Of a DNA stretch of 51,957 nucleotides, positions 1,618 through 51,957 are shown piece by piece. A program made the position numbers and the translations under genes. The stretch covers positions 1 to 51,957 of the IMG/VR virus record IMGVR_UViG_3300022743_000007; one strand, given 5' to 3'. Numbering within the stretch: the stretch's first letter is position 1; every line of letters begins with the position of its first letter. The DNA comes from a virus. Below the pieces are notes generated by a model, which was not told where the DNA came from, made no database searches, and saw only the letters and a list, made by a program, of their open reading frames with translations.

Positions 1618-2112
1618 CTATTCAACTTGGCGAGATGCCACAAAGCCAAACAGAGTTCGTTGCTCTCCCCAATCAAGCGGCACCTCCGCCTGCCGACCAC
1701 GGAGCGCGTGCAGGTTCAGATGACGTGGCTGCCGCCCGTCCAGGACCGCCCGGATGATGTCAGGTGCCAGACGCGTCATCCTGAGGACTTCGCTGACCCA
1801 ACCTGGCTCAAGCTTGAAGCGGCGTGCCAGTTCTGTTGCGTTGGACACCTCGCCGGTGTCGATCATTTTCTGCCAGTAGAAGGCCTTGCCGATGGTGCGG
1901 ATCAAGGGCAGATCGAATGTGGAAGGCGTTCTGACAAACGACGTACCGATTGGTGGCACGATCAACTTGCTGGAATGGCGGCGCTTGATCGCCAGCGGTA
2001 CGAACGTCACCGACCGACCGCCAAGTTCGAAATCCCTTGGCTTCCCCGATGGGGTGACCACGACACGGCGTGCCGCTGGCGTTTCTCGCGTGGGCTTTTC
2101 GATGGTACTCAT
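1618..2112 (-). CDS. HTH/ParB-like DNA-binding protein coupled to the serine recombinase
   Basis: A 164-aa basic protein. The stretch around residues 83-112 (TGEVSNATELARRFKLEPG, then VSEVLRMTRLAP) reads as the helix-turn-helix of a KorB/ParB-type binding domain. The ATG at 2112 overlaps the recombinase stop as TGATG, so translation is very probably coupled. A longer in-frame start at 2208 would lie inside the recombinase gene and is less likely. Small HTH proteins often follow recombinases of this DUF2924-associated class. A role in recombination directionality or operon control is inferred from position, not shown. Confidence 0.75.
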   Translation of the reverse strand: MSTIEKPTRETPAARRVVVTPSGKPRDFELGGRSVTFVPLAIKRRHSSKLIVPPIGTSFVRTPSTFDLPLIRTIGKAFYWQKMIDTGEVSNATELARRFKLEPGWVSEVLRMTRLAPDIIRAVLDGRQPRHLNLHALRGRQAEVPLDWGEQRTLFGFVASRQVE

Positions 2113-3521
2113 CACACAGTCTCCTCGTCGGCCGGTGCGCGTTGCTCGGCCACGAATTGGTGGCGCTCGAGTTCCCGGCAGAACCGCTGCCAACTGTCGT
2201 CCTGCCAAATGATGTCCAGCCCATCCTCGTGCAGTTGGACCCGATCAATGAGCAATCGCATGATTCGGTTCTGCTCGATGGGAAATAGGTTCTCCCACAC
2301 TTCGCTCATCTGACGCATGGCCACCAGCACGGTCGGCTCGTCCATTTCCTGCCGCTCCCGCAGAGCCATGCCGGCCTGCCAGACGCCAATGATCATCTCG
2401 GGTTCCTGCAATGCCTTATGCACCTGCGCCAGTACGGCTGTTTCGATTTCCAAGGCTGGCAGCGGACCGATGTTCGGCCGTGTGGGATCGTAGGTAGCAC
2501 CTGCCGAATGCCGCTTTTCCAAGTAAGGCACGTAGTAGCGATACCGCTTCCCGTTTTTCTTCTGGGTGTACGTCGGCAGCATCCGCTGACCATCCGGCGC
2601 GTACAGGAGGCCGGTCAGCAAGGCAGGTTCCTTTTTGTACCGGGTGCGTGGCCCCTGCTTGCGGCCATCCACAAATGCGTGCACAGCCGTCCATAACTCC
2701 GTGGAAACGATGGGCTCGTGCTGGCCAGGGAAGGATTGGCCCTTGTGAGTTATCTCCCCGAGGTAGAGGCGGTTGCGCAGCATGGTGAAGATGCACTGCT
2801 GATCGATGATCTTGCCTTCGTGGCGCCGGCCATTTTGGGCCACCCATACCTTTGTGGTGTGCCCCTCGATCTGCAACTCACGAACCAGTTGCGCAGCAGA
2901 ACCTGTTTCGGCATACCGCGCAAAAATGTCCCTGACCAACGCGGCTTCCGGTTCATTGACCACAAGTTTGCGGTCCCGGACGTCGTAGCCCAGCGGGGGC
3001 GTGCCCCCCATCCACATGCCTTTGGCTTTGCTGGCCGAAATCTTGTCGCGGATCCGTTCGCCGGTGACCTCGCGTTCAAACTGGGCAAATGACAGAAGTA
3101 TGTTGAGTGTCAATCGGCCCATGCTGGTCGTCGTATTGAACTGCTGGGTCACCGAAACAAAAGTGACGCCGTGCTCATCGAACAGATCCACAATTTTGGC
3201 GAAGTCTGACAGGGACCGGGACAACCGATCTATTTTGTAGACCACCACCACATCGATACGCCCATCCTCAACGTCCGCCAATAAGCGTTTCAACGCCGGT
3301 CGGTTGGTATTGCCGCCGGAGAACCCTCCGTCGTCGTATCCATCATCGATCGCAATCCACCCTTCGTGGCGCTGACTGCTGATGAATGCCAGTGCCGAGT
3401 CGCGCTGGGCTTCCAGACTGTTGTACTCCTGGTCCAGCCCCTCGTCTGTGGACTTACGGGTGTAAATGGCGCAGCGCTTTTTCGGCGTCAGTGCCGGCGA
3501 ACGTGTTGCTGGCGTTTTCAT
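2112..3521 (-). CDS. Large serine recombinase (phage integrase)
   Basis: Catalyses site-specific integration of the prophage through a Ser-DNA covalent intermediate. The resolvase domain (about residues 15-160) carries the nucleophile Ser24 in YTRKSTDE, the GGFSGG motif (65-70) followed by NTNRP, and the conserved DRLSR at 98-102. A recombinase domain follows, with GTPPLGYD and a conserved EAALVRDIF segment. The zinc-ribbon region (LLTGLLYAPDGQRM then RYRYYV) lacks the usual cysteine pairs. At 469 aa it sits at the short end for the class. It is third in a tightly overlapping leftward operon (small protein, DUF2924, recombinase, HTH protein). The target site cannot be predicted from the protein. 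Confidence 0.93.
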   Translation of the reverse strand: MKTPATRSPALTPKKRCAIYTRKSTDEGLDQEYNSLEAQRDSALAFISSQRHEGWIAIDDGYDDGGFSGGNTNRPALKRLLADVEDGRIDVVVVYKIDRLSRSLSDFAKIVDLFDEHGVTFVSVTQQFNTTTSMGRLTLNILLSFAQFEREVTGERIRDKISASKAKGMWMGGTPPLGYDVRDRKLVVNEPEAALVRDIFARYAETGSAAQLVRELQIEGHTTKVWVAQNGRRHEGKIIDQQCIFTMLRNRLYLGEITHKGQSFPGQHEPIVSTELWTAVHAFVDGRKQGPRTRYKKEPALLTGLLYAPDGQRMLPTYTQKKNGKRYRYYVPYLEKRHSAGATYDPTRPNIGPLPALEIETAVLAQVHKALQEPEMIIGVWQAGMALRERQEMDEPTVLVAMRQMSEVWENLFPIEQNRIMRLLIDRVQLHEDGLDIIWQDDSWQRFCRELERHQFVAEQRAPADEETV

Positions 3522-4327: not shown

Positions 4328-4341
4328 TTTCAGGCCTGAAA
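4328..4341. repeat. 14-bp perfect palindrome over the SIR2-like stop codon
   Basis: TTTCAGGCCTGAAA is a perfect dyad spanning the stop of the SIR2-like gene. It could act as a weak transcription end or a protein site, and has no run of T residues after it on either strand. Confidence 0.35.
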
Positions 4342-5325
4342 GAAACGCATCACCTTGTTGAACTCGATCGAGTCGCCGCCGAAGATTTCACGTAGAGACC
4401 GGCGAGATGCACCGATCAGTCCGCGCTCGAACGTTGCCTCAAGATCCGTCCCCACACGAATGGCGGCTTGGTGAGTTGGATTGACTCTCCTTGCCAGATC
4501 ACCGCCTTCAGGCGCGATGATGAACATTTGCGTTCCACGTTCATTGACTGAACGCATGATGACTTCGTTGATATGCGTGTCCCGGAAGCCATAGCCAATG
4601 ACCATCAACCGAGTGCCTCCCCGGTATAGGCGTTCTTCGAATTGCTGGTGGTACCAGCTCAGCACAGGCGAGAACTGAATATCCCGGATCTTGTTGCCTC
4701 CCATAATGAGCATTGGCGCGCCGTGAATCTCTTGCCAGTTCGATGAACCGTGTAGCTTGAAGTAGGGCTGGTAGCGTGAGTCCAGTGAAAATTCGGCGGG
4801 AGGTGCTGGCGACCATATTCTTTGCGCCCATGAATTCGGATTGGTCGACGCCGCGTTGTGACCAGGTCTCATGCCAGGCATCTCTGCGCCACCCCATCGA
4901 CCCGACGAGGTGAGGGAGATGTCCCGGTCGATGTAATAGTGCTCGACCAGAAGGTCTTGATTGAGCGTGAAGATCGCGTCAAATCGAGTCAGGAACGTGC
5001 CGACCATACGTTCCCTGGCTTGCTGAAACTCGAAGTCTACGTGGTCAAAATAGCCCTTGTTCATGTCGTCGAACATTCGGGTCACTGCACTTTGCAGATC
5101 TTGGAAGTGCGCGGTATTAGCTGCCGGATCACGAATGAAATCTGTCTGGACTACCGCAAGTGCGTTCTCAAAACCACCAGTTGGCTGGCATTGCCATAGC
5201 AATTTCTGAAGATGCGGATTGCGGAAAACTTCAGGGCAACCAAGTAAGTATTCAAACGCCTCAGAGGCCAGCCAACCGCCCCAGTTGCGGCTGAATCCCG
5301 CGCCAAGTAAAAGAATGTTTTGCAT
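4330..5325 (-). CDS. SIR2-like protein, candidate NAD-cleaving defence effector
   Basis: A 331-aa standalone SIR2-superfamily protein. The NAD-binding N-terminus reads LLLGAGFSRNWGG (5-17). The family's catalytic-region motifs are FTLNQD (Asn122, Asp124) and KLHGSSN (His192), and the C-terminal Rossmann segment carries VIGYGFRDTHINE. SIR2-like proteins of this GAGFS class are known NADase effectors in several anti-phage systems; no partner domain is fused here. The start ATG at 5325 has an AAGG ribosome site and lies 37 bp after the ImmA/IrrE gene on the same strand. It is therefore probably transcribed with the repressor and protease in the lysogen, which suits a superinfection-exclusion or abortive-infection gene. 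That role is inference. Confidence 0.82.
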   Translation of the reverse strand: MQNILLLGAGFSRNWGGWLASEAFEYLLGCPEVFRNPHLQKLLWQCQPTGGFENALAVVQTDFIRDPAANTAHFQDLQSAVTRMFDDMNKGYFDHVDFEFQQARERMVGTFLTRFDAIFTLNQDLLVEHYYIDRDISLTSSGRWGGAEMPGMRPGHNAASTNPNSWAQRIWSPAPPAEFSLDSRYQPYFKLHGSSNWQEIHGAPMLIMGGNKIRDIQFSPVLSWYHQQFEERLYRGGTRLMVIGYGFRDTHINEVIMRSVNERGTQMFIIAPEGGDLARRVNPTHQAAIRVGTDLEATFERGLIGASRRSLREIFGGDSIEFNKVMRFFQA

Positions 5326-5362: not shown

Positions 5363-6286
5363 TTACCGAACGGGCAACTGCCCGTTGTCGACAAAGCGAT
5401 CAAACGTGTCTCGCGTTTCTTCGTCGTCCCAATCACTGCGTTGGAACGAGCGCGGCGGAGCCGATTCCAGCATCAGCAATGACAGAACCCGATTGCCGTC
5501 GGTGTAGGTGTGTTTGAGTTCCCGCAAGCGTATGTCACCGCCTTCGCTTGTGCACCATGCACTGGCAGGCATGTCCACACCATCCCATTCCTGCGCGATT
5601 TCGTCATCTGCGGCCAGCGTGCCAACGAATGGCTCCTGAGGATCTTCCGTTTTTCGCAGCCGTACGCGCGTGCGCCTCGCCTCACCACTGGGCCATTGGT
5701 ACTTCAAAAATCCGTTGTCCCAGTAAACCAGGACGGCGCGCTGTTCGGTGTATTTGACCAAGCGGATGCACATCGCCTCGAGCGAGACGCCGAACTCCTT
5801 GGCCAGATCGCCGAGCAGATGGATGTCGATGCGTTTGCCATCGATACGATCCCGCAGCATATTGCCGGGCATCAGCAGATTGCTGGCGAAGTCGTCGGCC
5901 TCGCGCTCGATTGCTTTGAGCGTGTCGATGCCGGTGTACACGCTCTCCTTGTCACAGTTGAACGTCGCCTGCATCGCGCGGTGCAGAACAAAATGCCCCA
6001 GTTCGTGGGCCACGGTAAACCGCTTGCGTTCGGCGCGGGCCTTTGGGTTTACGAAAATCCCCCACTCCGAATGATTCTCTGGATTGCGCACCAGCGCGCC
6101 CTCGCTGGAATTCCATGTCAGATGGGCCGGTTCTTTGATTGATGCGCCTCGCCCAAAGGGGGTGTCTGGCAGCATCTGCCTGACCAGGTCCAGATCAATG
6201 GGCAAGGTGAGGCTGCCTATGGCATCCAGCCAGGTCAGTATCTTGGCGGCAGCCTTGAAACTATTCAGCGGCGCCGTGTCGCTCAA
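5363..6286 (-). CDS. ImmA/IrrE-family metallopeptidase
   Basis: A 307-aa zinc peptidase of the ImmA/IrrE family. The HEXXH motif is HELGH at 94-98 and the third ligand region is EREADDFASNLLMP with Glu129. Family members cleave XRE-type repressors to induce mobile elements, as ImmA does for ImmR in ICEBs1. The start codon is TTG at 6286 and overlaps the repressor stop as TTGA, so the two are translationally coupled. This supports the repressor as its substrate. A roughly 130-residue C-terminal extension beyond the core domain may be the sensing or substrate-binding part. Confidence 0.92.
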   Translation of the reverse strand: MSDTAPLNSFKAAAKILTWLDAIGSLTLPIDLDLVRQMLPDTPFGRGASIKEPAHLTWNSSEGALVRNPENHSEWGIFVNPKARAERKRFTVAHELGHFVLHRAMQATFNCDKESVYTGIDTLKAIEREADDFASNLLMPGNMLRDRIDGKRIDIHLLGDLAKEFGVSLEAMCIRLVKYTEQRAVLVYWDNGFLKYQWPSGEARRTRVRLRKTEDPQEPFVGTLAADDEIAQEWDGVDMPASAWCTSEGGDIRLRELKHTYTDGNRVLSLLMLESAPPRSFQRSDWDDEETRDTFDRFVDNGQLPVR

Positions 6287-6630
6287 GCGCCCTCCGCGTC
6301 GGAGCCCTTGTTGCCAAACATCAGCTTCATGGCGTCCCGGTAGCGTTTCTTTTCTTCTTCACTCATCCCGGCATATTCCCGGAAAAAAGCGACATCAGCG
6401 CCGCTGGCCTCCTTGACCTCACCGATGGGCTCGCCCAGCAGATCCTCTACCGTGACGCCGAGCAACTTGCCGATGGCGTTCAGGCGCTCGGCAGTGGGGC
6501 GCTGACCCTCGCGCATTTCCAGTTCCCAGACGTAACCCTTGCTGCAGCCAACGGCGTCTGCCACTTGCTGGAGCGTGAGGCCCTTGGCTTCACGAAATTG
6601 CCGTAACCGTATTCCGAAAGGACTTGGCAT
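6283..6630 (-). CDS. XRE-family phage repressor
   Basis: A 115-aa protein starting at the ATG at 6630. The open frame extends further upstream, but it runs through the promoter region and gives an unlikely peptide. An HTH_3 domain occupies about residues 6-62, with FREAKGLTLQQVADAVGCSKGYVWELE as consecutive helices. The C-terminus (FFREYAGMSEEEKKRYRDAM) is a helical region, probably for dimerisation. It heads the leftward repressor-ImmA-SIR2 operon and faces the early rightward promoter, the classic position of the lysogeny repressor. Confidence 0.9.
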   Translation of the reverse strand: MPSPFGIRLRQFREAKGLTLQQVADAVGCSKGYVWELEMREGQRPTAERLNAIGKLLGVTVEDLLGEPIGEVKEASGADVAFFREYAGMSEEEKKRYRDAMKLMFGNKGSDAEGA

Positions 6631-6659
6631 TTGCGTAATCACCCTAGAAATAGCAAAAA

Positions 6660-6688
6660 AGTATAGCAGAAAGAGCCAGTTCAATGAA
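6660..6688 (-). promoter_or_regulatory. Leftward promoter of the repressor operon
   Basis: On the minus strand, TATACT (6665-6660) is a good -10 and TTCATT (6688-6683) a weak -35, with a 17-bp spacer. The predicted transcript starts about 25 nt before the repressor ATG. The -35 lies inside the palindrome at 6679-6689, so repressor binding there would affect its own promoter. Confidence 0.55.
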
Positions 6689-6689
6689 C
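6679..6689. promoter_or_regulatory. Candidate repressor operator (palindrome)
   Basis: GTTCAATGAAC is a perfect odd-centred dyad overlapping the leftward -35 and 15 bp upstream of the rightward -35. A second inverted pair, GTATCG (6739-6744) and CGATAC (6762-6767), lies just past the rightward start point. Either could bind the XRE repressor. Confidence 0.4.
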
Positions 6690-6703
6690 AAGTGCCATTT
6701 TGA

Positions 6704-6731
6704 TTGACAAGCGGGTATGTGCGCGTACAAT
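6704..6731 (+). promoter_or_regulatory. Early rightward promoter
   Basis: TTGACA (6704-6709) and TACAAT (6726-6731) with a 16-bp spacer make the clearest sigma-70 promoter in the window. It would transcribe the early lytic genes from 6857 on, and it lies in the divergent region controlled by the XRE repressor. Confidence 0.75.
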
Positions 6732-6856
6732 CGGTCTTGTATCGTTCTACATGACTTTTAGCGATACGTGGCCTATTTTGTGTAACCAGTCGCCGACGGC
6801 AGCACCGCAAGGTTCCCGGTCTTCAGTCCAACGACGACATCCTGAAAGGACCGAGT

Positions 6857-40628: not shown

Positions 40629-41000
40629 ATGCCAGAACCAACCAGTAGTGGAGTTGCAGGTGCTGCCGCCTTTAAGGCAGTCGGAGGTGCGGCAGCCGGA
40701 GGAGCGCTGCTTGCCACCATTGTCGTGATGTTGATGACGCCGCCCCGATCCAGTCGAGAATGGGCCGTTGGGGTGATCAGTACTGTGGTTACCGGCATTG
40801 GCGGTGGGGCCATCACCGTCGAGTATTTTGGGTTGCAGGGCTGGGTGCATTCGGTAACAGGACTTGCTGCCTTGGGTGGCTTGATATTCGGCTGTGGCCT
40901 GCCTGGATGGGCCATCGTGCGCTGGGTATTCAATTTCATCGAGAAAAACCGTGATGCTGGAATCGATGAGATTGCACACGACATGAAGGAGATACTGTAA
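40629..41000 (+). CDS. Putative holin
   Basis: A 123-aa protein with three hydrophobic segments (about 18-37, 47-65 and 75-98), a short charged C-terminus (FIEKNRDAGIDEIAHDMKE) and a GGAGAGG site. It starts a lysis cassette, 1 nt overlap with the endolysin (TAATG). A holin is the natural reading; no family motif is decisive. Confidence 0.78.
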   Translation: MPEPTSSGVAGAAAFKAVGGAAAGGALLATIVVMLMTPPRSSREWAVGVISTVVTGIGGGAITVEYFGLQGWVHSVTGLAALGGLIFGCGLPGWAIVRWVFNFIEKNRDAGIDEIAHDMKEIL

Positions 41001-41461
41001 TGAACGCTCAGGACTTCATCAAGCTCATTGGCCCAGCCGCACAAGCTTCGGCCAAAGCGACCGGCGTGCCTGCAAGTTTCACCGTAGCAGAGGCAGCGCT
41101 TGAATCGGGATGGGGTGCGTCACAGCTTGCCACTCTAGGAATGAACCTGTTCGGTGTGAAGGCCGACCCGTCTTGGCACGGCGATGTCTTGACACTGAAC
41201 ACTCGGGAGTTTCTGCACGGCACCTGGGTTATGGTGCCTGCGCGTTGGCGCAAGTACGCCGATTGGCAGACGTGCATGGACGATCACGCGGCGTTCTTGC
41301 ACCAGAACCGCCGATACGAATCATGTTTTTTGTGCGCGACCGGTGACGCCTTCGCCAAGGCGGTGGCGCAGGCTGGATACGCGACAGATCCTGATTATGC
41401 GGCCAAGCTCACGTCCATTATCGACCGGCACAAGTTAGTCAATTTGGACGGGGTGGCGTGA
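41000..41461 (+). CDS. Endolysin, glucosaminidase (GH73-like)
   Basis: A 153-aa protein. TVAEAALESGWGASQLA carries the catalytic Glu35, and NLFGVKADP (49-57) follows, the glucosaminidase/GH73 pattern that cleaves peptidoglycan glycan chains. No signal peptide is seen, so export depends on the holin. No separate cell-wall-binding domain is present. Confidence 0.9.
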   Translation: MNAQDFIKLIGPAAQASAKATGVPASFTVAEAALESGWGASQLATLGMNLFGVKADPSWHGDVLTLNTREFLHGTWVMVPARWRKYADWQTCMDDHAAFLHQNRRYESCFLCATGDAFAKAVAQAGYATDPDYAAKLTSIIDRHKLVNLDGVA

Positions 41462-41994
41462 TGTTTCCGATTCTGAACGTTCTAGCTGCGTTTCCATGGC
41501 GGTTGATTGCCATTGGTGCGCTTGCTGCAGTCATATTCGTCGGTGGATGCCAATTTGGGGAGAACCGTGTTGCCGCCAAGTGGGGCGCGGAAAAACTCGC
41601 GGTTGCTCAGGTCGTTGCCAAACAGGCAGACAAAACTGCCTCCATCAACGCGCAGGAATCCGCTATCAATCAGGAGATTTCAAATGAATTTCAGAAAACC
41701 AAAGCTGCCATTGCCACCAATGGCCGCGATTTGCTTGCCCGTGTTCCTGTGCGCGTGCGCGTCGACGCCGCAGGTCGTGACAGCGCCGTGCCCAGCGTTC
41801 CCGACAGTCCCAGCCGATCTGCTTCAGTCACCACCAACGCTATACCTGCTGCCGAGCAACCATCAGGCAACGCCACCTGCGAAAAACTAGCCGAAGATGC
41901 GGCTCAAACGACGCTGATTCTGGTGGAATTGCAGCGGTGGTATCAGGAGCAAGCAGCGGCATTTTCGAGCCCAACTTCTTCTACGTGGCACTGA
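41461..41994 (+). CDS. Rz: Rz-like inner membrane spanin
   Basis: A 177-aa protein starting at the ATG at 41461, inside the endolysin stop. One N-terminal transmembrane helix (about 12-30, LIAIGALAAVIFVGG) is followed by a long periplasmic helix (about 35-85, AEKLAVAQVVAKQADKTA). This is i-spanin topology. It contains an out-of-frame Rz1 gene. Confidence 0.85.
   Translation: MFPILNVLAAFPWRLIAIGALAAVIFVGGCQFGENRVAAKWGAEKLAVAQVVAKQADKTASINAQESAINQEISNEFQKTKAAIATNGRDLLARVPVRVRVDAAGRDSAVPSVPDSPSRSASVTTNAIPAAEQPSGNATCEKLAEDAAQTTLILVELQRWYQEQAAAFSSPTSSTWH
41684..41890 (+). CDS. Rz1: Rz1-like outer membrane lipoprotein nested in Rz
   Basis: A 68-aa protein fully embedded in the +1 frame relative to Rz. 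An AGGAG site lies 7 nt before the ATG at 41684. The lipobox is LCAC (signal peptide cleaved before the second Cys), and the mature part is Pro-rich (PCPAFPTVPADLLQSPPTLY), as in lambda Rz1. With Rz it fuses inner and outer membranes at lysis. Confidence 0.9.
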   Translation: MNFRKPKLPLPPMAAICLPVFLCACASTPQVVTAPCPAFPTVPADLLQSPPTLYLLPSNHQATPPAKN

Positions 41995-42182: not shown

Positions 42183-43961
42183 TTACTTTACTTTAGTGAG
42201 CAAGAAGCGATCAATGCAAAGTACATCGATGTCAGTTGAAAGGAAGCATCTTATTGCGTCCTCCGGGGTTTCGACGATAGGTTCACCGGCGACGTTAAAC
42301 GATGTCTCCAACACCATAGGTATGCCTGTGCGCTTGTCGAATGCCTTTATCAAGTCGTAGTAAGGCGCATTGACATCTCTGGTGACGGTTTGCACTCGTG
42401 CTGTGTTATCCACGTGTGTAATTGCAGGCACCAACTCTCCCTTGCCTGGTTTTACGTAGGCTGCCAGAAGCATGAAGGGCGCATCGACGTCTAACTCGAA
42501 GAATTCGCTAGAACGCTCAGCAAGGACTGACGGTGTGAAGGGGCGGAAGCTTTCCCGAAATTTCACTCTCGAGTTGAGAATGTCTTTCATGTCATGACGT
42601 CGTGGATCGGCAATGATGCTTCGATTGCCCAGTGCCCTTGGTCCAAATTCACTTCGCCCTTGATACCAACTCGTAATCTGTCCTGCCTCTATGGCAGCTG
42701 CCATAACGTCATAAAGTTCGGCTAGGTCGTCGAACTCCTTGATCACGATAGAGCTATCGCCCTTGCGGGCTTCAACCGCTTTGCGGATTTCTGCCTCTGA
42801 GTACAACTTGCCAAGTGAATCTGTCGTCGCGACATATTTTCTTGGATTGTTTTGAAGTTGATTGTAGGCATGGAGGGCTTGCCCTACCGCCAAACCATTG
42901 TCACCGGAATTCGGATGGATAAAAATATTGTCAAATTTGGATCGTGCCAAGACTTGATAATTCGCCACGCAATTCAACCCTACGCCGCCTGCGATGCAAA
43001 GGTTCTTGCTGCCCGTATTCTCGTAAAGCCAGTCAGCAAGATATACCATCACATCTTCTGTTAGCTTCTGCACTGCGAAAGCTAGATCCTTGTGAACATC
43101 TGTGAACTCCTCACCCTTCTGCTTTCTTTTGAACTGTCTCAAAAAGCGGCCATAGGAAGGAAGTTTGTAGAGCACCTTTTCAGGCATAAACCCACGCTTG
43201 ATGAGTTTGACCGGATGCCGTATGTCGAAGTCGAGGGTGTCAAATTCCAATTCGTTTTTTAGGGTGTCGTAATACGTGGATTTTCCATAGGGTGCGAGTC
43301 CCATGGTTTTTCCCTCTTCGTTTGTTTCGAACCCCGCCGCCTTTGTAAAGGCCGCATACATGCCGCCAAGGCTGTATCTGACTGGTAGATCCCTGAGTAT
43401 TTCTATGGAGTTACCCTTACCATACGCCAGGCATCCGGATAACTGATCGCCACCAGTTCGCGCGAGAGGCACTCCTTGCCCATCGACCACCATGATGGCA
43501 GCCTCTTCAAAAGGCGATGGGAGAAACGCTTGGCATGCGTGAGAGAAATGATGCTCCGGAACAATAAATTCAATATTCGGATTGCGATCCTTAAAGAATT
43601 TCCGGGCGCTCTCGTTATATCGGTAGCTATAAACCACGCAGGTTACGTCGCTTAATGAAATGCCTCCCGCATCTAGCAGGTAGTCGAGCAAGAGGTTGAA
43701 TTTTTCCAGCTTATGAAAATCGACATTCGAGTAGTCCCCCTCGAAATCGAAAGGAAGATCCAGATGTTCCTGATAGACCTTCGGGTCACTGGTCCAGCCG
43801 AATGTCTCCAGGTCCACCTTGGTAATTGGCAATAAAATGTCATTTTTTACTCGGGTCAATCTTTCAAGACTTGTGGCAACAGTAACTACACCATCAAGAC
43901 ACACGACCCCACTGAAGCCGTGACCACTTAGAGTAAAACTCAGTATGCAATTTCTCTTCAT
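42183..43961 (-). CDS. NodU/CmcH-type carbamoyltransferase
   Basis: A 592-aa protein in two domains. The N-terminal half has the metal-site motif HHFSHA (137-142) and VVDGQGV. The C-terminal half has SWYQGRSEFGPRALGNRSII (Gly435 to Ser448 in its core) and SGDNGLAVG. The family moves carbamoyl from carbamoyl phosphate to sugars or antibiotics. The start at 43961 matches family length; an upstream ATG at 44003 has no ribosome site and overlaps a palindrome (43993-44012). The neighbouring acyltransferase and TPR genes suggest a surface sugar target. Style is clearly more AT-rich than the phage genes. Confidence 0.9.
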   Translation of the reverse strand: MKRNCILSFTLSGHGFSGVVCLDGVVTVATSLERLTRVKNDILLPITKVDLETFGWTSDPKVYQEHLDLPFDFEGDYSNVDFHKLEKFNLLLDYLLDAGGISLSDVTCVVYSYRYNESARKFFKDRNPNIEFIVPEHHFSHACQAFLPSPFEEAAIMVVDGQGVPLARTGGDQLSGCLAYGKGNSIEILRDLPVRYSLGGMYAAFTKAAGFETNEEGKTMGLAPYGKSTYYDTLKNELEFDTLDFDIRHPVKLIKRGFMPEKVLYKLPSYGRFLRQFKRKQKGEEFTDVHKDLAFAVQKLTEDVMVYLADWLYENTGSKNLCIAGGVGLNCVANYQVLARSKFDNIFIHPNSGDNGLAVGQALHAYNQLQNNPRKYVATTDSLGKLYSEAEIRKAVEARKGDSSIVIKEFDDLAELYDVMAAAIEAGQITSWYQGRSEFGPRALGNRSIIADPRRHDMKDILNSRVKFRESFRPFTPSVLAERSSEFFELDVDAPFMLLAAYVKPGKGELVPAITHVDNTARVQTVTRDVNAPYYDLIKAFDKRTGIPMVLETSFNVAGEPIVETPEDAIRCFLSTDIDVLCIDRFLLTKVK

Positions 43962-43992
43962 TTTCTTACCCACATCTTTCCGATTTGTGAAT

Positions 43993-44012
43993 GGTTGACC
44001 CATTGGTCAACC
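43993..44012. repeat. 8-bp inverted repeat before the carbamoyltransferase
   Basis: GGTTGACC-CATT-GGTCAACC is a perfect dyad about 30 bp upstream of the chosen start. It could be an operator or an RNA hairpin affecting expression of the last cargo gene. Confidence 0.5.
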
Positions 44013-44033
44013 GAGCAGCAGTGTTAGTGTTAT

Positions 44034-45278
44034 TCAGTGCAATGTTCGCGATCCAGGGATGGCGTCATTGCTGACAGACTCGTGCGAGTCGTATGCAACG
44101 CTGTATGAATCATCTGTGTGAATTGTAAACTTCTCGTCTGTGCTAGCACAGCCTCTTGCCTTGCGGGCCTCATCCAAATTTGCACGAATAGTCGTTGTAA
44201 GTTCGTGGTGAGGTCCAAAGATCTTTTCACGTATTACCAGGGCGCGGCGCCATAAGCTTTCTGCTTCAAGATGACCATGGGCCGCCTGGAGCAACTGCGC
44301 CAGATTGCTGAGGCTGTTAGCCGTGACTGAGTGATCTGGCCCAAGCGTCATTTCATTGATTGCCAATGCCTGACGAAATAGTGACTCGGCCTCGGATGTT
44401 CGACCTTGCGAGCGATAGAGCACTGCCAAATTGCTCATGGTAACGGCAGTGTCTGGGTGGTTCTTTCCGAAAACATCTGTGCAGATTGCTACTGCGCGCG
44501 ACAAGAGTGGCTCCGCCTCAGAAAGTCTGCCTTGGTTTTCGTATACATTTGCCAAGCAATTTAAAGTCGCAGCAACATCAGGATGACTAGACCCTAAACT
44601 TCGACTAAGGACGCTGAGAGCGTGCAATAAGAGCGGTTCTGCCTCTGCATACCGCCCTTGATTGACATAGAGGACCGCCAGATTGTTTTCCGTTCTTGCA
44701 GTATCGAGATGATCTGGCCCATTCACTTTTGTTCGGCTGGCCAGCACTCGTAATAACGGTGGCTCTGCTTCAGCAGATTTGCCTTGTGAATTAAATAGCA
44801 GTGACAGATTGCTGAGGATTAGCAAAGTATCCGGATGCTCAGAGCCCAATGCCTTCTCTGTGATTGACAGGGCTCTCAGAAGCAACGGAGCAGCCTCGTC
44901 GTAGCGCCCCAATAGCCGATAGAGCATCGCTAGGTTACTTATTGCGGTAGCAGTTTCGGGGTGATCAGACCCGAGGTTCTTCTCTCGACTTTTTAGTACA
45001 CGCAATAAGAGAGGCGTGGCGTCTTCGTATTGAGCTTTTGACGCGAAAAGAACAGACAGGTTGTTGATCGTTGTTAGCGTATCCGGATGATCAGGTCCCA
45101 AGGTTTTTTCCCGGATAGCCAAGACACGCAACAGCAAAGGTTCTGCATCCGCGTATCGACCGTTTGTAAAGAGCAGAACGGCCAGTTCGCTTAGTATTGC
45201 TAAGGTCTCAGGGTGCTCTGGCCCCAACACCTTTTCACGAATTGCTAATTCCTTTTGAAAACGAATCTCCGCCGGCAT
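44034..45278 (-). CDS. Tetratricopeptide repeat protein (kinesin-light-chain type)
   Basis: A 414-aa protein built of about nine 42-residue TPR units, each with the pattern LGPDHPDT, NNLAVLY and GRYAEAEPLLLRAL, visible as a 126-bp periodicity. These form a superhelix for protein binding. The start is uncertain: the frame opens at a GTG at 45398, but that would overlap the acyltransferase by 62 nt with a non-TPR N-terminus, so the ATG at 45278 is preferred. It lies between two sugar-modifying genes and may be a scaffold or regulator for them. Confidence 0.82.
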   Translation of the reverse strand: MPAEIRFQKELAIREKVLGPEHPETLAILSELAVLLFTNGRYADAEPLLLRVLAIREKTLGPDHPDTLTTINNLSVLFASKAQYEDATPLLLRVLKSREKNLGSDHPETATAISNLAMLYRLLGRYDEAAPLLLRALSITEKALGSEHPDTLLILSNLSLLFNSQGKSAEAEPPLLRVLASRTKVNGPDHLDTARTENNLAVLYVNQGRYAEAEPLLLHALSVLSRSLGSSHPDVAATLNCLANVYENQGRLSEAEPLLSRAVAICTDVFGKNHPDTAVTMSNLAVLYRSQGRTSEAESLFRQALAINEMTLGPDHSVTANSLSNLAQLLQAAHGHLEAESLWRRALVIREKIFGPHHELTTTIRANLDEARKARGCASTDEKFTIHTDDSYSVAYDSHESVSNDAIPGSRTLH

Positions 45279-45336
45279 ACCCCACCCAAAAAGGAACGGA
45301 GCCCTAAGTACCTGCAAGCGTAAAGAATCCCAATAG

Positions 45337-47289
45337 TTAATCAACGTGAGTCCCGCTGCTAGTCTGACTAAATATTCGCTTGGCCAAGAAATATGCACCA
45401 GGCTCAGTTAAGTGCATGGTGTCAAAGGACGAGAGATCGCGCCAGTCTTCACCAACGCGGGTCATGCACGCTTTCCCATCACAAAAAATGTTCATCGCCG
45501 AGATGTAGTCCACGCCGAGCACTTGGATTTTGGCAGCCATTTCCTTATCGAAGACAAATGAGTCTGCATCAAAGCCCTTGGATGACATCGCCGGAGTTGG
45601 AATCTCCTTATGAATGGTCCATTCTGCAAAAATTTGTTTTGGAAGTTGCGGCCTCCAGAGAGGCAATGGTCCAACGATAATGATTCGCTTCACACCTTGA
45701 GATTGCAAAAAGGCTACCGTTTTTGCAAGCAAGTCAGGAACATTGAAATCTGTATCGTATCCAGCATATTTTGTGTACTTGATCCAGTAGCCAGATAACA
45801 CAACTGTCTCTGGCTTGAGGTCAGTGATTTTTTTGGTTACGAACTGATTTACGCTGCGGCAGTGCTTGTTATTTGGGTCGTCAAAATCAAGAAATGGGGG
45901 ACAGTTGCTAGTGGTGTATTGAGCCAGTATGCGCCCCTGTTCCGCTTGAACTTTAGCTAGACCTGGGTAGAAGCTCCCTGCGATTGAGTCACCCCAAAGC
46001 AGCATCGATCCGGCTCGCTGTTTGGCAACATCACCGCTACAGATTTCGGCGAAATCATGTTCGTAGTCTGCAGCCTTCAGATTGAAGCATGTTCCAGAAC
46101 GCCAAGCACCCACCAAGTCAAAGGTCTTTTCATATCGAATAATGTTGGCGACGTAGTCGGGAAACCGTTTTGCATAGCCTGCGGATTGGTAAGTTGCAGC
46201 GCCCATGCAGCCGATGCTGAAAATCAGCACTGACAAAGCGATCGGCACCTTCCGATTCGTCTTAAGCATTCCGCTCCGGACGGGCTGTTCAAAGCATTTG
46301 TATGTCAGGTAAGAAAGCACAAATGCAACGATGGTGGCAACTACTCTAGACTTGAAGTCGTATCCGGCTATTCTGGTAAAGGCAAATAGGGGCCAATGCC
46401 AAAGATAAAGTGGGTAGCTTATTAATCCCACAAAGACCATAGGCTGGCTGCTCAATATCTGCTTATTTACTATTGCATTGGGGCCGGCGTAAATCAGCAG
46501 TGCAGCGCCAAGAACTGGCAGTAGAGCCCACCATCCTGGAAAATCCATGGCTTTGTTCAATCCAAATACTGCAGCCAGAATCAGAACGGTGCCAACAATA
46601 GAAATAGCATGTCGGCCATTCTTTGAAACAGCAAATTGGTGATTTGAAATTGATAGCCAAGCGAGTCCGCCACCCACCAGTAGTTCCCAAAAACGGGAAA
46701 CTGGCAAATAGAAAGCATTAGCAGGTTCAGACTGAATAAGAAGGATATTTAAGGCAAATGACGCCACGAGCGCGATAACGATAACTCGCCCAAAATTTCC
46801 AAGGAATCTCCAGGACAACAGCAATACGACTGGCCAGACCACATAAAACTGTTCCTCGACCCCAAGTGACCAAAGATGAAGTAACGGCTTTAATTCACTA
46901 GCGGTGTCAAAGTATCCAGTCTCTAACCAATACCCTATGTTCGCGACGAAACCTGCGCCCGCTGCTATGTGTTTTCCGAGGGATTCATAATCGGAGGGCT
47001 CTAGCCAGATATAACCAGCAGCCCAAGTTGAAGCAAGGACGAGAATTAATGCTGGAAAAATGCGCCGAATTCGCCTGCTGTAGAAATGCCAAAAGGAGAA
47101 AGTTCCATCTTTCAGTTCAGAAAGGATGATTTTCGATATTAAATAGCCGGAAATCACAAAAAAGATGTCGACGCCGACAAACCCGCCGGATAATAGGCGA
47201 GAACTGGCATGGAAAGCGACGACGGACAGGACCGCGACGGCGCGCAATCCGTCGATATCGGCCCTATATTTCAAGGAAGGGTTGCTCAT
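45337..47289 (-). CDS. OafA/YrhL-type acyltransferase with SGNH domain
   Basis: A 650-aa membrane protein. The N-terminal acyltransferase_3 domain begins YRADIDGLRAVAVLSVVAFH (His27) and has about ten transmembrane helices. The C-terminal periplasmic SGNH domain has WGDS (Gly433-Asp434-Ser435) and the DTMH end motif (Asp623, His626). This architecture O-acetylates lipopolysaccharide O-antigen or similar surface sugars, and phage-borne members cause serotype conversion. The start at 47289 is chosen over 47331. It heads the leftward cargo operon. Confidence 0.92.
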   Translation of the reverse strand: MSNPSLKYRADIDGLRAVAVLSVVAFHASSRLLSGGFVGVDIFFVISGYLISKIILSELKDGTFSFWHFYSRRIRRIFPALILVLASTWAAGYIWLEPSDYESLGKHIAAGAGFVANIGYWLETGYFDTASELKPLLHLWSLGVEEQFYVVWPVVLLLSWRFLGNFGRVIVIALVASFALNILLIQSEPANAFYLPVSRFWELLVGGGLAWLSISNHQFAVSKNGRHAISIVGTVLILAAVFGLNKAMDFPGWWALLPVLGAALLIYAGPNAIVNKQILSSQPMVFVGLISYPLYLWHWPLFAFTRIAGYDFKSRVVATIVAFVLSYLTYKCFEQPVRSGMLKTNRKVPIALSVLIFSIGCMGAATYQSAGYAKRFPDYVANIIRYEKTFDLVGAWRSGTCFNLKAADYEHDFAEICSGDVAKQRAGSMLLWGDSIAGSFYPGLAKVQAEQGRILAQYTTSNCPPFLDFDDPNNKHCRSVNQFVTKKITDLKPETVVLSGYWIKYTKYAGYDTDFNVPDLLAKTVAFLQSQGVKRIIIVGPLPLWRPQLPKQIFAEWTIHKEIPTPAMSSKGFDADSFVFDKEMAAKIQVLGVDYISAMNIFCDGKACMTRVGEDWRDLSSFDTMHLTEPGAYFLAKRIFSQTSSGTHVD

Positions 47290-47699
47290 ACTGAAATCCA
47301 AAGTCAATCGCCGTTCGGCGGTGCCCCACATAAGGGAGCAAGTTTACTTTGGGGCCGCCAATTGCCACCCCTCGGCTCGCTTTTTCGCGTAGTCAAATGG
47401 TTTGTGGACCGGGCGACGGCGTCTATGAGCGATAAACGCACCATTTTACTTCGATCTTCAACCTCAGGGAAGCTTTATGCCTGTAGGCTTTATGCCTGTA
47501 GGATTCTTGCTCCGGAAACCTACAAAGCGACATGGCCGTCTCACATGTTGCCGCTGTTGAAAACGGAATGTTGAGCGTGATTAGCGACCGACCTCAGTCA
47601 GGCTCAACTGGAGAGCTGGCTAGGGGCTGAAAGTTGGTTGTACTGACCGCCGTGGCTGCGTTCACTCTGTTGCGCTGACCCAAGAATGGAGAAGTAAGA
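47290..47699. other. Divergent intergenic region with a tandem repeat
   Basis: A 410-bp gap between the leftward acyltransferase and the rightward DCL gene. It should hold both promoters, but no consensus pair is convincing. It contains a perfect tandem repeat of GCTTTATGCCTGTAG at 47472-47486 and 47487-47501. Base composition changes across it from the AT-rich cassette to a GC-rich gene, so it may mark a recombination junction. Confidence 0.45.
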
Positions 47700-48446
47700 A
47701 TGGCAAAGCCCGTCGAGATTGGTGCCCGGAGTTTCCGGACCCAGAGCAGCGCCCTTGAACACTTTAAGGCTCTACTGCACCGTTATCAAGATGGTCAGCG
47801 CATTGCCGACCAGGGCGATCATGCCGACCTAACGGATCTCATCGAGCGGTATGACCTGGTGCTCGATGCTGTCGGTGAGCCAACGAAAGGTGCGGGCCAG
47901 ATCGCACATTTCGAGCGACGGCTGAATACGGGGACCGGCTGGAGCAGCTCGGGGTTCTGGGTTGTTCGTCAGGACGGAAGGGCTACCGACTTCTCGTACA
48001 TCGACGCCGTGAAGGGCAAACCGAAGGGCCGTTCGCAGAACTTTTACAACGCCTGCCGTCAGGCCGTCGCACTTGACCTCATCCAAGCCAAGAAAAAGGC
48101 CTTTGTCCAGTACGGAGACGATCAGGGCCGGGTCGAGTGTGAATTGACCGGAAAGATGGTCACCATCGACGATGCGCATCTGGACCACGCGTGGCCGTAC
48201 TTTTCACACTTGGTGAGCGGATTTCGAGCTGCCAGGAACTGGTCGAGAGAAATTCCGGAGGGAGTCGTTTCTGACCCGGCTGACGGGCAGACCACGGCGA
48301 CCTTTCTCGACAGCGCTGTGGCTGATGCTTTCCGCGCTTTCCACAACGATCAGGCCATGCTCCGAATCCTCTCTCGGGAGGCTAATCTTCAAACGGCTAG
48401 CTCAGCGCGGCGGCCGAAAGTAGCGCGGCCGATCTCCTTGGTGTAA
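47700..48446 (+). CDS. DCL-family (DUF3223) protein
   Basis: A 248-aa protein. The N-terminal half (about 9-115) matches the DCL pattern: FRTQSSALEHFKALLHRYQDG, a DLIERYD segment and FWVVRQDGRATDFSYIDAV. The domain was named from a plant chloroplast rRNA-maturation protein; bacterial members are poorly studied and often occur on mobile elements. The C-terminal part contains CELTGKMVTIDDAHLDHAWPY, a nuclease-like Cys/His cluster (possible HNH remnant) by eye. It lies 234 bp before the dCTP deaminase on the same strand. Confidence 0.8.
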   Translation: MAKPVEIGARSFRTQSSALEHFKALLHRYQDGQRIADQGDHADLTDLIERYDLVLDAVGEPTKGAGQIAHFERRLNTGTGWSSSGFWVVRQDGRATDFSYIDAVKGKPKGRSQNFYNACRQAVALDLIQAKKKAFVQYGDDQGRVECELTGKMVTIDDAHLDHAWPYFSHLVSGFRAARNWSREIPEGVVSDPADGQTTATFLDSAVADAFRAFHNDQAMLRILSREANLQTASSARRPKVARPISLV

Positions 48447-48680
48447 CCGCGTGCTGCTTGGCTGAGTCGGACTGAGGATGCCGCACTGAAGATGCCATTC
48501 CGCCACGGCCTTTGAAATTTCGTCATCGGTAATGGGGGCTGCGCAGAAGCTTCAATTCAGGCATCATGACACGTACAATCTTTTCATTCTCCGAAGCATT
48601 GCCGTGACTTGGGCTTGTGCGGCATAAATTACGTTTCGGTGGGGCTATAGAAAAAACAAGATGCGAATATAGAGGGTGGT
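48447..48680. other. Leader region of the dCTP deaminase gene
   Basis: No coding gene is seen on either strand that I would accept. In known AvcID systems an inhibitory small RNA (AvcI) is encoded just upstream of avcD, so this 234-bp stretch is where such an RNA would be expected. I see no decisive hairpin or promoter for it. Confidence 0.35.
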
Positions 48681-50279
48681 ATGAGTGCAGCAGGAACGAA
48701 TGCCCTAAAGGTGGTGACTGGACCTGAGCAGGGTGCAACTGAGCAATCTGTCAGGATTCCGCGACTGAACGAACGGCTTACTGAAGAGCTGGTAATTGCA
48801 CTCGTCGGCCCTGTAGGCTCTGGCTGTTCGACGACCTACGCGACACTCAATGAGATATTGGGCAGCCAGTACTCCTACGAAGTGCATTACTACAAGCTCA
48901 GCGAATACATCGCTCAAGGAGCCAAACTCGTCGAGGATGCCATCGCCGATCAACTGCCCGCAGCCGATCGCGTTGATATGTTGCAGACAGTCGGCGATAA
49001 GCTCCGAAAAGCTTGTGGATCCTCATACTTGGCTGCGAAGGCAGTCGAGAAGATTGCCGAGCAACGAGATCTCGAGGGTTTCGGAAAGACGGCGGATGGC
49101 GTTGCAGTGCCGAAGAAACTGCGGCAGGTCCACATCATCGACTCTATCAAGCACCCAGAAGAACTCAAGCTGTTGCGTTCGACGTATGGCGAGATCTTCT
49201 GGCTGATCGGAGTCTTTGCGCCATTGGGGGTTCGCGAGCAGCGGCTCACGTTACAGCAGAATTTGGACAAGGCAGCGCTGAGCAAGATTATTCAGCGAGA
49301 CTATCGCGAAGAAGACGATCACGGTCAAAAAGTCCGCGATGTGTTTTACCAAGCCGACTTCTTTGTCCGAAACGACCAAGAAAACAAGATCCAGTTAGAA
49401 AAGTCACTGGATCGGTTTTTGGAAATCATCTTCGGCAGTCCGGTTCATACGCCGACGCTGGATGAGTCCTCAATGTATGCTGCATACGCTGAGGCTGCGA
49501 AATCCGCTTGCCTGTCGCGGCAAGTTGGCGCGGCGGTCGTAAGTGGAAAAGGTGAATTGATCGGACTTGGTCGTAATGATGTTCCGCAGTACGGCGGCGG
49601 GCTCTATACAGAAGACGCCGGTGCTGGCGATCATCGTTGTCATGCCTGGCAGGACAGGCGCTGCCACAACGACAAGAAGAAAGATGTGCTTTACCAGCAG
49701 ATTTTCGAGAAGCTAAAGAAGAGCAACCTGCTGGCTGAAGGGGTCCGTCCAGAGGACGTGGCCAAGGCAGTCAAGGCGACGGACGTAAAGAGCCTGATCG
49801 AGTACTCACGGGCGGTGCATGCTGAAATGGACGCCATTACATCAGTAGCAAGGACTCACAAGGCGGGTCTGTTGGGTGGAACGCTGTACTCAACGACCTT
49901 CCCCTGTCATTCCTGTGCGCGGCATATCGTGGCCAGTGGTATTTACAAGGTGTTTTTTATCGAGCCGTATCCGAAGAGCCTGGCCACGGAGCTACACTCC
50001 GATGCGGTGTCGGAGAGCGAGGGCGATGCCGGAAAAAAGGTCCTGTTCCTTCAGTTTTCAGGAATAGCGCCGAAAAACATCCTTAAGCTCTTCAACGTCG
50101 GATTGACACGAAAGGGCAGCGATGGGAAACTGAAGCCCTTCGACAAGAAGACTGCGTCTCCTGTCGTCAAGGTCTCATTAGACGATTATTCGACTCACGA
50201 AAAGTGGGTCATTGCGGAGCTAGCCGAGAATGAACAACAAGCGTCACAAGGTAAACAACCAGCTCTCTTTGACGCTTGA
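48681..50279 (+). CDS. Anti-phage dCTP deaminase (AvcD-like)
   Basis: A 532-aa two-domain protein. The N-terminal P-loop-like domain has GPVGSGCST (43-51), in which the usual Walker A lysine is Cys49. The C-terminal deaminase has the zinc site HAE (His380, Glu382) and PCHSC (Cys409, Cys412), preceded by the family's GDHRCHAWQDRRCHND segment. AvcD-type enzymes deaminate dCTP to dUTP on infection, starving phage of nucleotides. The length matches the family. A GAGGGTGG site precedes the ATG, and a small ORF follows with a 50-bp overlap. Confidence 0.93.
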   Translation: MSAAGTNALKVVTGPEQGATEQSVRIPRLNERLTEELVIALVGPVGSGCSTTYATLNEILGSQYSYEVHYYKLSEYIAQGAKLVEDAIADQLPAADRVDMLQTVGDKLRKACGSSYLAAKAVEKIAEQRDLEGFGKTADGVAVPKKLRQVHIIDSIKHPEELKLLRSTYGEIFWLIGVFAPLGVREQRLTLQQNLDKAALSKIIQRDYREEDDHGQKVRDVFYQADFFVRNDQENKIQLEKSLDRFLEIIFGSPVHTPTLDESSMYAAYAEAAKSACLSRQVGAAVVSGKGELIGLGRNDVPQYGGGLYTEDAGAGDHRCHAWQDRRCHNDKKKDVLYQQIFEKLKKSNLLAEGVRPEDVAKAVKATDVKSLIEYSRAVHAEMDAITSVARTHKAGLLGGTLYSTTFPCHSCARHIVASGIYKVFFIEPYPKSLATELHSDAVSESEGDAGKKVLFLQFSGIAPKNILKLFNVGLTRKGSDGKLKPFDKKTASPVVKVSLDDYSTHEKWVIAELAENEQQASQGKQPALFDA

Positions 50280-50442
50280 GTTCTCGCCGCAGAATGTCCA
50301 GAGCGCCTGTTCCACAGTGGCACCTGTCCAGCAGCGTTCTGCCGGCATCATCGCATTCCCAACCCGCCAATCTCAGGGGACGAGCTTTCGTGAGCGTGTC
50401 ATCCAGGACCTGAGGAAAACCCGGGTCATGGTCGCAGATTAG
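50230..50442 (+). CDS. Small protein overlapping the dCTP deaminase end, 70 aa
   Basis: NNQLSLTLEFSPQNVQ at the start and SFRERVIQDLRKTRVMVAD at the end look like real protein. A GGAG lies 10 nt before the ATG at 50230. It overlaps the deaminase gene by 50 nt and is followed by a terminator at 50469-50497, so the pair forms one unit. I cannot assign a function; a partner or regulator of the deaminase is possible. Confidence 0.6.
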   Translation: MNNKRHKVNNQLSLTLEFSPQNVQSACSTVAPVQQRSAGIIAFPTRQSQGTSFRERVIQDLRKTRVMVAD

Positions 50443-50832
50443 AAACGTCCTGACATCGGACCCATGCACAGCTCGGAACTCCCGGGCTGTTTTGTTTATA
50501 GGATGCGTTGTGCGTTCAAGGTTGCAAATTCGATTGTTAAAGGCGGAACCGAACTGGGCGTGCGTCCAAGATCTACGGGGTATCCCGAAAGCAAACCCAT
50601 TGATTTCGCAGTTGGTCTTGCAAAAACTCAAGGCACCCCATACAATCCGCCACCTTGCGCACATGCGCGCAGAGCGGTGAAGGGGTGGTTGTAATTGCAA
50701 CGCTTCTACACCACCAAATTCCAATGAGGAGATGCGAGTAGTTCCGAGGAGTTGGTAGTAAAGAAATTCGCAAAGATTTCTGCCTACCCAGTCCATATAA
50801 CGAACTCTCTCGACTCCAAAGCTAGAAAAATC
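50443..50832. other. Intergenic region after the deaminase operon
   Basis: Apart from the terminator at 50469-50497, nothing recognisable is seen. Overlapping open frames on both strands here lack ribosome sites and protein-like composition. Confidence 0.4.
50469..50497 (+). terminator. Terminator of the dCTP deaminase operon
   Basis: CAGCTCGG (50469-50476) pairs with CCGGGCTG (50482-50489), allowing one G-U, followed by TTTTGTTT. It closes the deaminase plus small-ORF unit. Confidence 0.7.
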
Positions 50833-50891
50833 AACGACTTAGAGCGTGTGTCACGCTCAAGAAAGCGGCCCCAGCAGGGGCCGCAGTCGTT
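50833..50891. other. Three-way-junction-like structured element / terminator
   Basis: An outer stem AACGACT (50833-50839) and AGTCGTT (50885-50891) encloses two perfect hairpins: GAGCGTG-TGT-CACGCTC (50842-50858) and GCGGCCCC-AGCA-GGGGCCGC (50865-50884). The second with TTTT at 50889-50892 could serve as a terminator. The leftward HTH gene ends 17 bp away at 50908. Confidence 0.6.
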
Positions 50892-50907: not shown

Positions 50908-51375
50908 TTACCCGGGTAGTTGCGCGAGCGTCTGCAGTAATGTGCGGCGGTTGTCGTCAGCTGACAGCGTCGCGCCATTGGCTTGCGCTTCTTCCGACCA
51001 CTTGCGCGCCCACCCCATGACTTCCTCAGGATTGAAGCGTACGAGTTTGCCCACTCTGGTATGCGGAATACCAAGTGTTTCCCGAACCTGTGGGTGAGTG
51101 AGCGTGTACATGGGGATTCCTGTGGCCGCAGACAGCTGCCGTGGGGACAGCCACCTCGTATTGGCTGGAAGGATCACATCACTTGCCTTTTGCCAGGTTG
51201 ATTCGTAAAGGGCACTGTGTTCGTAGGCCTCGATTTCATCAAGCGGGTAGATCACCCGCTTCGAGAGCTTGAGGAACCGTGGCCCTCGACCTTCACAGCG
51301 CCAGCGTTGCAAGGTCTTGGAACTGATCCCCCAGCGCTGAGCCAGCTCGTTTTCGTTAAGCACTAGCTTTTCCAT
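50908..51375 (-). CDS. Two-domain HTH protein, fusion-like excisionase/regulator
   Basis: A 155-aa protein starting at the ATG at 51375 (AGGAG site). The N-terminal half, LNENELAQRWGISSKTLQRW and then LKLSKRVIYPLDEIEAYEHS, is closely similar to the 89-aa protein at 9227. The C-terminal half, LSAATGIPMYTLT and TRVGKLVRFNPEEVMGWARK, resembles the 83-aa protein at 13734. It may be an excisionase or repressor of a second element beside the prophage. Confidence 0.82.
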   Translation of the reverse strand: MEKLVLNENELAQRWGISSKTLQRWRCEGRGPRFLKLSKRVIYPLDEIEAYEHSALYESTWQKASDVILPANTRWLSPRQLSAATGIPMYTLTHPQVRETLGIPHTRVGKLVRFNPEEVMGWARKWSEEAQANGATLSADDNRRTLLQTLAQLPG

Positions 51376-51597
51376 TGTGTAACTCCTGTTAGTAGTTGAG
51401 GAGTTCACATTGGGTTTGAAAGAGTCAGGGTACACAAGGTTCTCAAGGCCCTCAAGGCCCAATTTCTTCAACTATTAGCTGGGCGGCACATTTGGACACT
51501 CCCTTTCTTCACGCCAGCCCGACTGGGTGTATTCTTGAGATATCTGAAGAGATCACAATGTGCTCGTATTTGTAGAACTAGGTAAAAATCGATAAAT
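51376..51597. promoter_or_regulatory. Divergent control region at the right edge
   Basis: A 222-bp region between the leftward HTH gene and the rightward HTH-ImmA gene. It holds a tandem CTCAAGGCC repeat at 51442-51450 and 51451-51459 and a short dyad, CTTGAGATATCTGAAG, near 51535. These are candidate regulator sites; no clear promoter pair is assigned. Confidence 0.4.
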
Positions 51598-51957
51598 ATG
51601 GCTACAGCAAAAGAAGGCCTGCCTATCACTCCCGCTGTCGTTCAGTGGGCACGTGAGCGGTCTGGCTACTCTATTGAAGAAGCAGAGCGACATTTCAAAA
51701 AGATTGCCGCCTGGGAGGCGGGGCGGTCAATGCCGACCTATGTCCAAGTCGAAGATATGGCCGACCGATTTAAAGTGCCCGTCGCTGTCTTCTTTTTCCC
51801 CCAACCTCCAGAGCTGCCTGCACTAGAAAAATCGTTTCGAACTCTCACAGCTGAAGACTTTGCGGCAATTCCGCGAAGGGTTCGCTTCTTTTTACGCCAG
51901 GGACGTGCTATGCAGCTGAACTTGGCGGAACTAAACGATGGGAAAAACCCCTCGTCA
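51598..51957 (+). CDS. HTH plus ImmA/IrrE protein, truncated by the window end
   Basis: An open frame from the ATG at 51598 to the last base, 120 codons with no stop. AVVQWARERSGYSIEEAERHF and AWEAGRSMPTYVQVEDMADR, then FKVPVAVFFFPQPPE, are typical of the N-terminal HTH of long ImmA/IrrE proteins, followed by SFRTL. The HEXXH motif would lie beyond the window. Such genes often pair with a PIN-type toxin, which cannot be checked here. Confidence 0.82.
   Translation, partial: MATAKEGLPITPAVVQWARERSGYSIEEAERHFKKIAAWEAGRSMPTYVQVEDMADRFKVPVAVFFFPQPPELPALEKSFRTLTAEDFAAIPRRVRFFLRQGRAMQLNLAELNDGKNPSS

Follow-up and report, generated by a model that had tools for sequence, protein, structure and literature searches.

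The locus lies in a 51,957-base IMG/VR record (IMGVR_UViG_3300022743_000007), the whole of which was analysed and is referred to here as the window. The window reads as a prophage: it contains a tRNA-Phe (52-127), a serine recombinase on the minus strand (2112-3521), terminase, portal, capsid and tail genes, and lysis genes at 41000-41994, as read from the translations. An att repeat was searched for between the window ends and none was found. 3' of the lysis genes is a cargo region with a GC content of 0.48-0.55, compared with mostly 0.55-0.62 before it, whose genes follow the order NodU-type carbamoyltransferase, TPR protein, acyltransferase, DCL, avcD and a small open reading frame (ORF); the avcD locus is thus located in the cargo end of the prophage. 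The first three of these genes, on the minus strand at 42183-47331 and including an OafA-like acyltransferase, are likely involved in surface modification. On the other side of the locus are an excisionase-like HTH protein (50908-51471, minus strand) with a strong hairpin just after it at 50865-50884, and an XRE protein with weak RmrA similarity that is cut by the window end (51598-51957). Near the recombinase, three minus-strand ORFs were read by eye as a SIR2-like-looking protein (4330-5325), an ImmA/IrrE-type metallopeptidase (5363-6286) and an XRE regulator (6283-6810); this group is a possible further defence or lysogeny module.

The original prediction described a DCL gene, avcD, a small ORF and a terminator at 47700-50497. 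All four were found in the window, the right end at 50497 including the terminator, and their coordinates are listed in Table 1 together with the motifs discussed below.

Table 1. Features of the avcD locus in window coordinates.
Feature	Position	Strand	Basis
DCL/DUF3223 (HamC-like) gene, 248 aa	47700..48446	+	Pfam DUF3223, PADLOC HamC
Gap of 234 nt before avcD (AvcI RNA position in classic AvcID)	48447..48680	+	RNA fold, gap lengths
avcD, anti-phage dCTP deaminase, 532 aa	48681..50279	+	NF041025, PADLOC dCTPase, aligned homologues
P-loop-like stretch GPVGSGCSTT, AvcD residues 43-52	48807..48836	+	Sequence and alignment
HAE zinc/catalytic motif, AvcD residues 380-382	49818..49826	+	Invariant in alignment
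PCHSC zinc motif, AvcD residues 408-412	49902..49916	+	PCHxC conserved in alignment
Small 3' partner gene, 70 aa, 50-bp overlap with the avcD 3' end	50230..50442	+	Clade ORFs with same motif, codon bias
QLSLTL, clamp-binding-like motif, small-protein residues 11-16	50260..50277	+	Clade alignment, published consensus
Predicted C-terminal helix, small-protein residues 50-63	50377..50418	+	AlphaFold2, low confidence
Terminator-like hairpin and T run after the small gene	50468..50490	+	Sequence; hairpins also follow the small gene in L028, L029 and L045

Studied AvcD enzymes convert dCTP and dCMP to dUTP and dUMP during infection, and phage DNA synthesis is starved. The 532-aa protein of the window is, as judged from its sequence, a true member of this anti-phage dCTP deaminase family. 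It matched the NCBIfam model NF041025 with 463.3 bits against a cut-off of 400, covering positions 1-437 of the 437-position model, and the PADLOC dCTPase model with 556 bits, which confirms the earlier assignment made from the zinc motifs HAE and PCHSC and the P-loop-like N-terminus. In an alignment of nine homologues, the HAE and PCHxC frame was invariant, and all three features of the window protein aligned with those of plasmid-borne AvcD proteins, the one from ETEC H10407 among them. By sequence, the closest solved structures were dCMP deaminases. The protein therefore shares its deaminase family, HAE/PCHxC motifs and P-loop-like N-terminus with the AvcID systems of Vibrio and E. coli (ETEC), which are type III toxin-antitoxin systems, and it aligned over its full length, at about 33% identity, with the AvcD of the ETEC plasmid p58 (L008). 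When viral contigs were scanned with the window AvcD as a single protein, no match was obtained; a scan with the AvcD alignment gave 80 loci, of which approximately 66 were true AvcD relatives. The AvcD of studied relatives depletes dCTP/dCMP during infection (PMC10511110).

The DCL protein matched Pfam DUF3223 with 39 bits (cut-off 21) and the PADLOC HamC models with 287 bits, and its fold comprises a DUF3223 domain (2K0M-like) and a C-terminal domain that lacks a clear solved match. The C-terminal half may at most tentatively be read as an HNH nuclease, the fold matches to HNH/NinG-type proteins being weak (E 0.08-0.4). HamC is a component of Hachiman type II (HamA-HamB-HamC) and is described next to hamAB at approximately 4% of the loci of that system (PMC8565338). 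However, hamA (DUF1837) and the hamB helicase are not beside the DCL gene of the window, whose neighbours are the acyltransferase and avcD.

DCL lies on the same strand as avcD, 234 bp upstream, and the DUF3223 protein Mlp1 of Tetrahymena promotes pre-tRNA folding (PMC9705548). Both points would suit a three-gene system, with the small ORF as its third member, in which an RNA antitoxin of AvcD is chaperoned or processed by DCL. The co-occurrence counts make this reading very improbable. Among 125 avcD loci (8 from plasmids and the rest from viral contigs and GTDB genomes, with flanks of 1.5-6 kb, some of them cut by contig ends), the window was the only one with DCL near avcD. Conversely, avcD was beside none of the 31 DCL loci in genome contigs, and none of the 19 genomes with a DCL relative, searched whole, contained an AvcD over the cut-off. 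In 399 Burkholderiales genomes, avcD was present in 14, DCL in 13 and both in 0; as an overlap of only about 0.5 is expected by chance, this zero is weak alone, but it is consistent with the other counts. DCL as an AvcD partner was thus rejected on counts taken in both directions.

DCL genes with 74-95% identity to that of the window (L002, L003, L100-L113) were found in unrelated defence settings instead. Their neighbours were CapV and a CD-NTase of CBASS (L003), BrxA/B/C and a WYL regulator of BREX (L104, with L113 and L002 looking alike), AbiEi/AbiEii (L100 and L110) and a HerA-type helicase (L105 and L106); on plasmids, DCL adjoins Hachiman genes. A DCL with 91% identity (L101) lies in a prophage lysis region, with an acyltransferase beside it after the lysis genes. 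Closely related DCL genes in these different settings shared flanks of only approximately 24-150 bp upstream and 30-280 bp downstream, and because flanks this short are carried across such varied settings, we judged DCL to be a moving cassette. Serine recombinases were also observed near DCL in several loci (L003, L107, L111 and L112). From these comparisons, DCL looks like a portable, independent single-gene defence-island cassette and an unrelated passenger beside avcD, and where DCL adjoins a defence gene, it is best regarded as a passenger unless a link between the two is shown. The proposed extension of the system to three genes therefore holds for the small 3' ORF, which recurs beside avcD as predicted (see below), but not for DCL, which does not. 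Since the small ORF co-occurs with avcD and DCL does not, the unit looks two-gene rather than three-gene.

The sequence 3' of avcD was read at every locus and revealed short ORFs with a shared start pattern at the avcD stop codon. In a FastTree phylogeny built from AvcD only, the window fell in a clade of 18 (support 94), with an inner set of 7 at 98. An ORF of 50-95 aa was present at the avcD 3' end in all 18 members of this clade, whereas 27 of the 28 members of the sister clade, to which the plasmid AvcDs of E. coli and Vibrio (AvcID) belong, had no small downstream ORF and only 1 had one. The pattern was kept under a better model in IQ-TREE, a quick run that left out L023 and L045, whose avcD frames are broken or partial: the small ORF was present in all of the window's subclade of 6 (support 97) and in all of a second subclade of 10 (support 98), and the sister clade had a support of 99, although the two small-ORF subclades were not firmly united. 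In the viral contig L023 (5950-7544), avcD is split into two frames and the small motif-bearing ORF is kept.

The small ORF matched no family in any library searched, it is short, and it overlaps avcD by 50 bp, features that would also be expected of a spurious overlap at a locus where only avcD matters. We consider this the least probable of the alternatives, given the 18/18 occurrence, the shared motif described below and the signs of coding. Coding selection was measured in close pairs only, the window ORF itself being without a close relative. Between the small ORFs of L020 and L021, 34 of the 58 nucleotide differences were at third codon positions (P 7e-5), and the pairs L029/L045 and L028/L029 showed a similar third-position bias. 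The DNA of L020 and L021 is similar throughout avcD and up to the final base of the stop codon of the small ORF, where the similarity ends at both loci. A terminator-like hairpin was found 3' of the small ORF in L028, L029 and L045, as in the window, so the small ORF is probably the last gene of its transcript; the repeats at these three loci had at first looked like cassette ends and proved to be the terminator hairpins themselves. On this sequence evidence, the small ORF is a real, conserved 3' partner gene of one AvcD clade. An AlphaFold2 model of its 70-aa product had a mean pLDDT of 60.5, with approximately 71 in the helix block, and was disordered outside one C-terminal helix, which suggests, at low confidence, the shape of a short adaptor.

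In the AvcID systems studied so far, AvcD is held by an RNA antitoxin, which is lost when the phage shuts off host transcription. This antitoxin RNA, about 171-300 nt long, is encoded next to avcD, whereas the window's clade has a conserved small protein at the 3' end and often little upstream room for such an RNA. The window could nevertheless represent an ordinary AvcID, with AvcI RNA in the 234-nt gap as the antitoxin and the small ORF as a minor accessory: its AvcD is clearly in the family, and the gap is long enough for a minimal AvcI, the functional minimum being roughly 171 nt (PMC10511110). Several observations render this improbable. The gap had no structure signal in an RNA fold comparison (z-score +1.59), although the ETEC plasmid control had none either (z-score -0.47). 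In several members of the clade the gap measures 33-140 nt, and every sampled member of the clade carries the small ORF. When the gap was taken as the distance between avcD and the closest ORF of at least 150 aa on its upstream side, it was below 171 nt in 6 of 14 loci of the window's clade and in 1 of 18 of the sister clade, a modest difference (Mann-Whitney P 0.02) that includes one short gap, in L162, resting on a possibly spurious ORF. AvcI was also sought by upstream DNA similarity, but these regions were too divergent to align. Replacement of the AvcI RNA by the small protein is plausible from these gene arrangements. Members of the sister clade (L005, L008, L009, L036, L037, L189-L191, L195 and L196) have an ORF of approximately 61-79 aa immediately before avcD, at a distance of -8 to 54 nt, where the AvcI RNA would lie; some of the plasmids annotate it as a hypothetical protein.

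The small ORFs of the window's clade have an N-terminal Q-L-x-L-x-F/L motif. In 19 ORFs, including one from the sister clade, position 1 was Q in 19/19, position 2 L or M in 15/19, position 3 E, S or D in 17/19, position 4 L in 15/19 and position 6 F or L in 17/19, giving the Q-anchored pattern Q-[LM]-[ESD]-[LF]-x-[FL] at most positions. Within the first 30 residues, 14 of the 18 small ORFs of the clade had the strict motif; the expectation from shuffles was 0.09 (maximum 2 in 5000), and 0.6% of 6357 ORFs of like size had it. The corresponding P value of about 7e-22 allows for three candidates and treats the loci as independent though they are related; the small ORFs were chosen with the motif already in view, but from only one to three candidates at each locus, so that this choice has little effect, and the tree was built without them. 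L020 (QPSLLL) and L021 (QTSLLL), which are among the window's nearest relatives, fit the motif only loosely.

This pattern resembles the bacterial clamp-binding consensus, QL[S/D]LF or QxxLF, and QLSLPL is a tight binder of E. coli DnaN (PMC12309361). QLSLTL in the window and the clade consensus QLxLx[FL] are like both QLSLPL and the QLSLF of PolC. QLSLTL thus looks like a beta-clamp-binding motif, and docking on DnaN may be read from it; unlike known carriers of such motifs, the small protein matches no known family. The C-terminus of the window AvcD itself ends in QPALF, which also fits QxxLF but was absent from every other AvcD checked, so it probably arose by chance from the overlap of the two reading frames. 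QPALF and the QLSLTL of the small ORF are read from the same bases (50256-50279), and both fit clamp-motif patterns. A literature search, with most subscription papers outside its coverage, found no paper tying AvcD to a downstream protein or to the clamp.

In the next clade out, an unrelated downstream protein of 160-190 aa was present at 9 of 11 loci (L011, L046, L051, L060, L163, L164, L167, L169 and L172), and the two of these proteins that were tested had no Pfam match. Five of the nine contained an exact QxxLF (QLSLF, QLDLF, QGLLF, QGMLF and QALLF), compared with a shuffle mean of 0.2, and two more contained QLALPY or QLSFPY; the motif was often near the N-terminus. That two unrelated partners share this tag is, in our view, the strongest reason to think that the tag has one target. 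A third type of downstream ORF, 55-80 aa long and with a WPxWK-like motif but no clamp-like one, was seen in other AvcD clades (L047, L049, L053, L055, L065, L161, L165, L168 and L193); it is possibly another protein partner or antitoxin.

The small gene could alternatively be a real AvcD partner, either an antitoxin or an assembly factor, whose QLxLx[FL] binds AvcD or another host protein rather than the clamp. What has been observed for the small gene is its conservation and linkage, and clamp binding is read from a six-residue motif alone; moreover, protein antitoxins encoded beside their toxins are common, and space for an AvcI RNA is often scarce in the clade. On the other hand, the motif agrees with all defined positions of the clamp consensus, among them position 3 (S/D/E) and the last position (F/L), and the exact QxxLF recurs in the unrelated downstream family of the neighbouring clade. 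We therefore regard a target other than the clamp as rather unlikely, yet as an alternative of real weight.

The explanation we prefer, to which we give an even chance of being correct, is that the window contains a prophage-borne two-gene variant of AvcD in which the overlapping small protein uses the clamp to target or control the deaminase. The unit would consist of avcD and the overlapping small gene, closed by the terminator. The small protein would be a mostly disordered adaptor, with its N-terminal QLxLx[FL] docked in the pocket of the beta-clamp (DnaN) and its C-terminal helix holding AvcD. It might hold AvcD inactive up to the point at which the replisome is disturbed, or the clamp drawn upon, by phage replication, or it might park AvcD at replication forks, such that dCTP would be removed where phage DNA is made. 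The small protein may take the place of AvcI, the upstream RNA antitoxin. Starting from the family, linkage and motif observed here, we infer the binding to AvcD, the binding to the clamp and the trigger.

Extended to the family, this leads to the more tentative proposal, which we hold at somewhat below an even chance, that there is a branch of AvcD in which a partner protein couples the enzyme to the sliding clamp, so that phage replication is sensed or locally starved, and that the unrelated downstream partners of a neighbouring AvcD clade evolved or kept the same clamp tag. If true, a clamp-docking partner would give the same enzyme a different trigger or place of action, and it would explain how nucleotide depletion could be aimed at replicating phage DNA.
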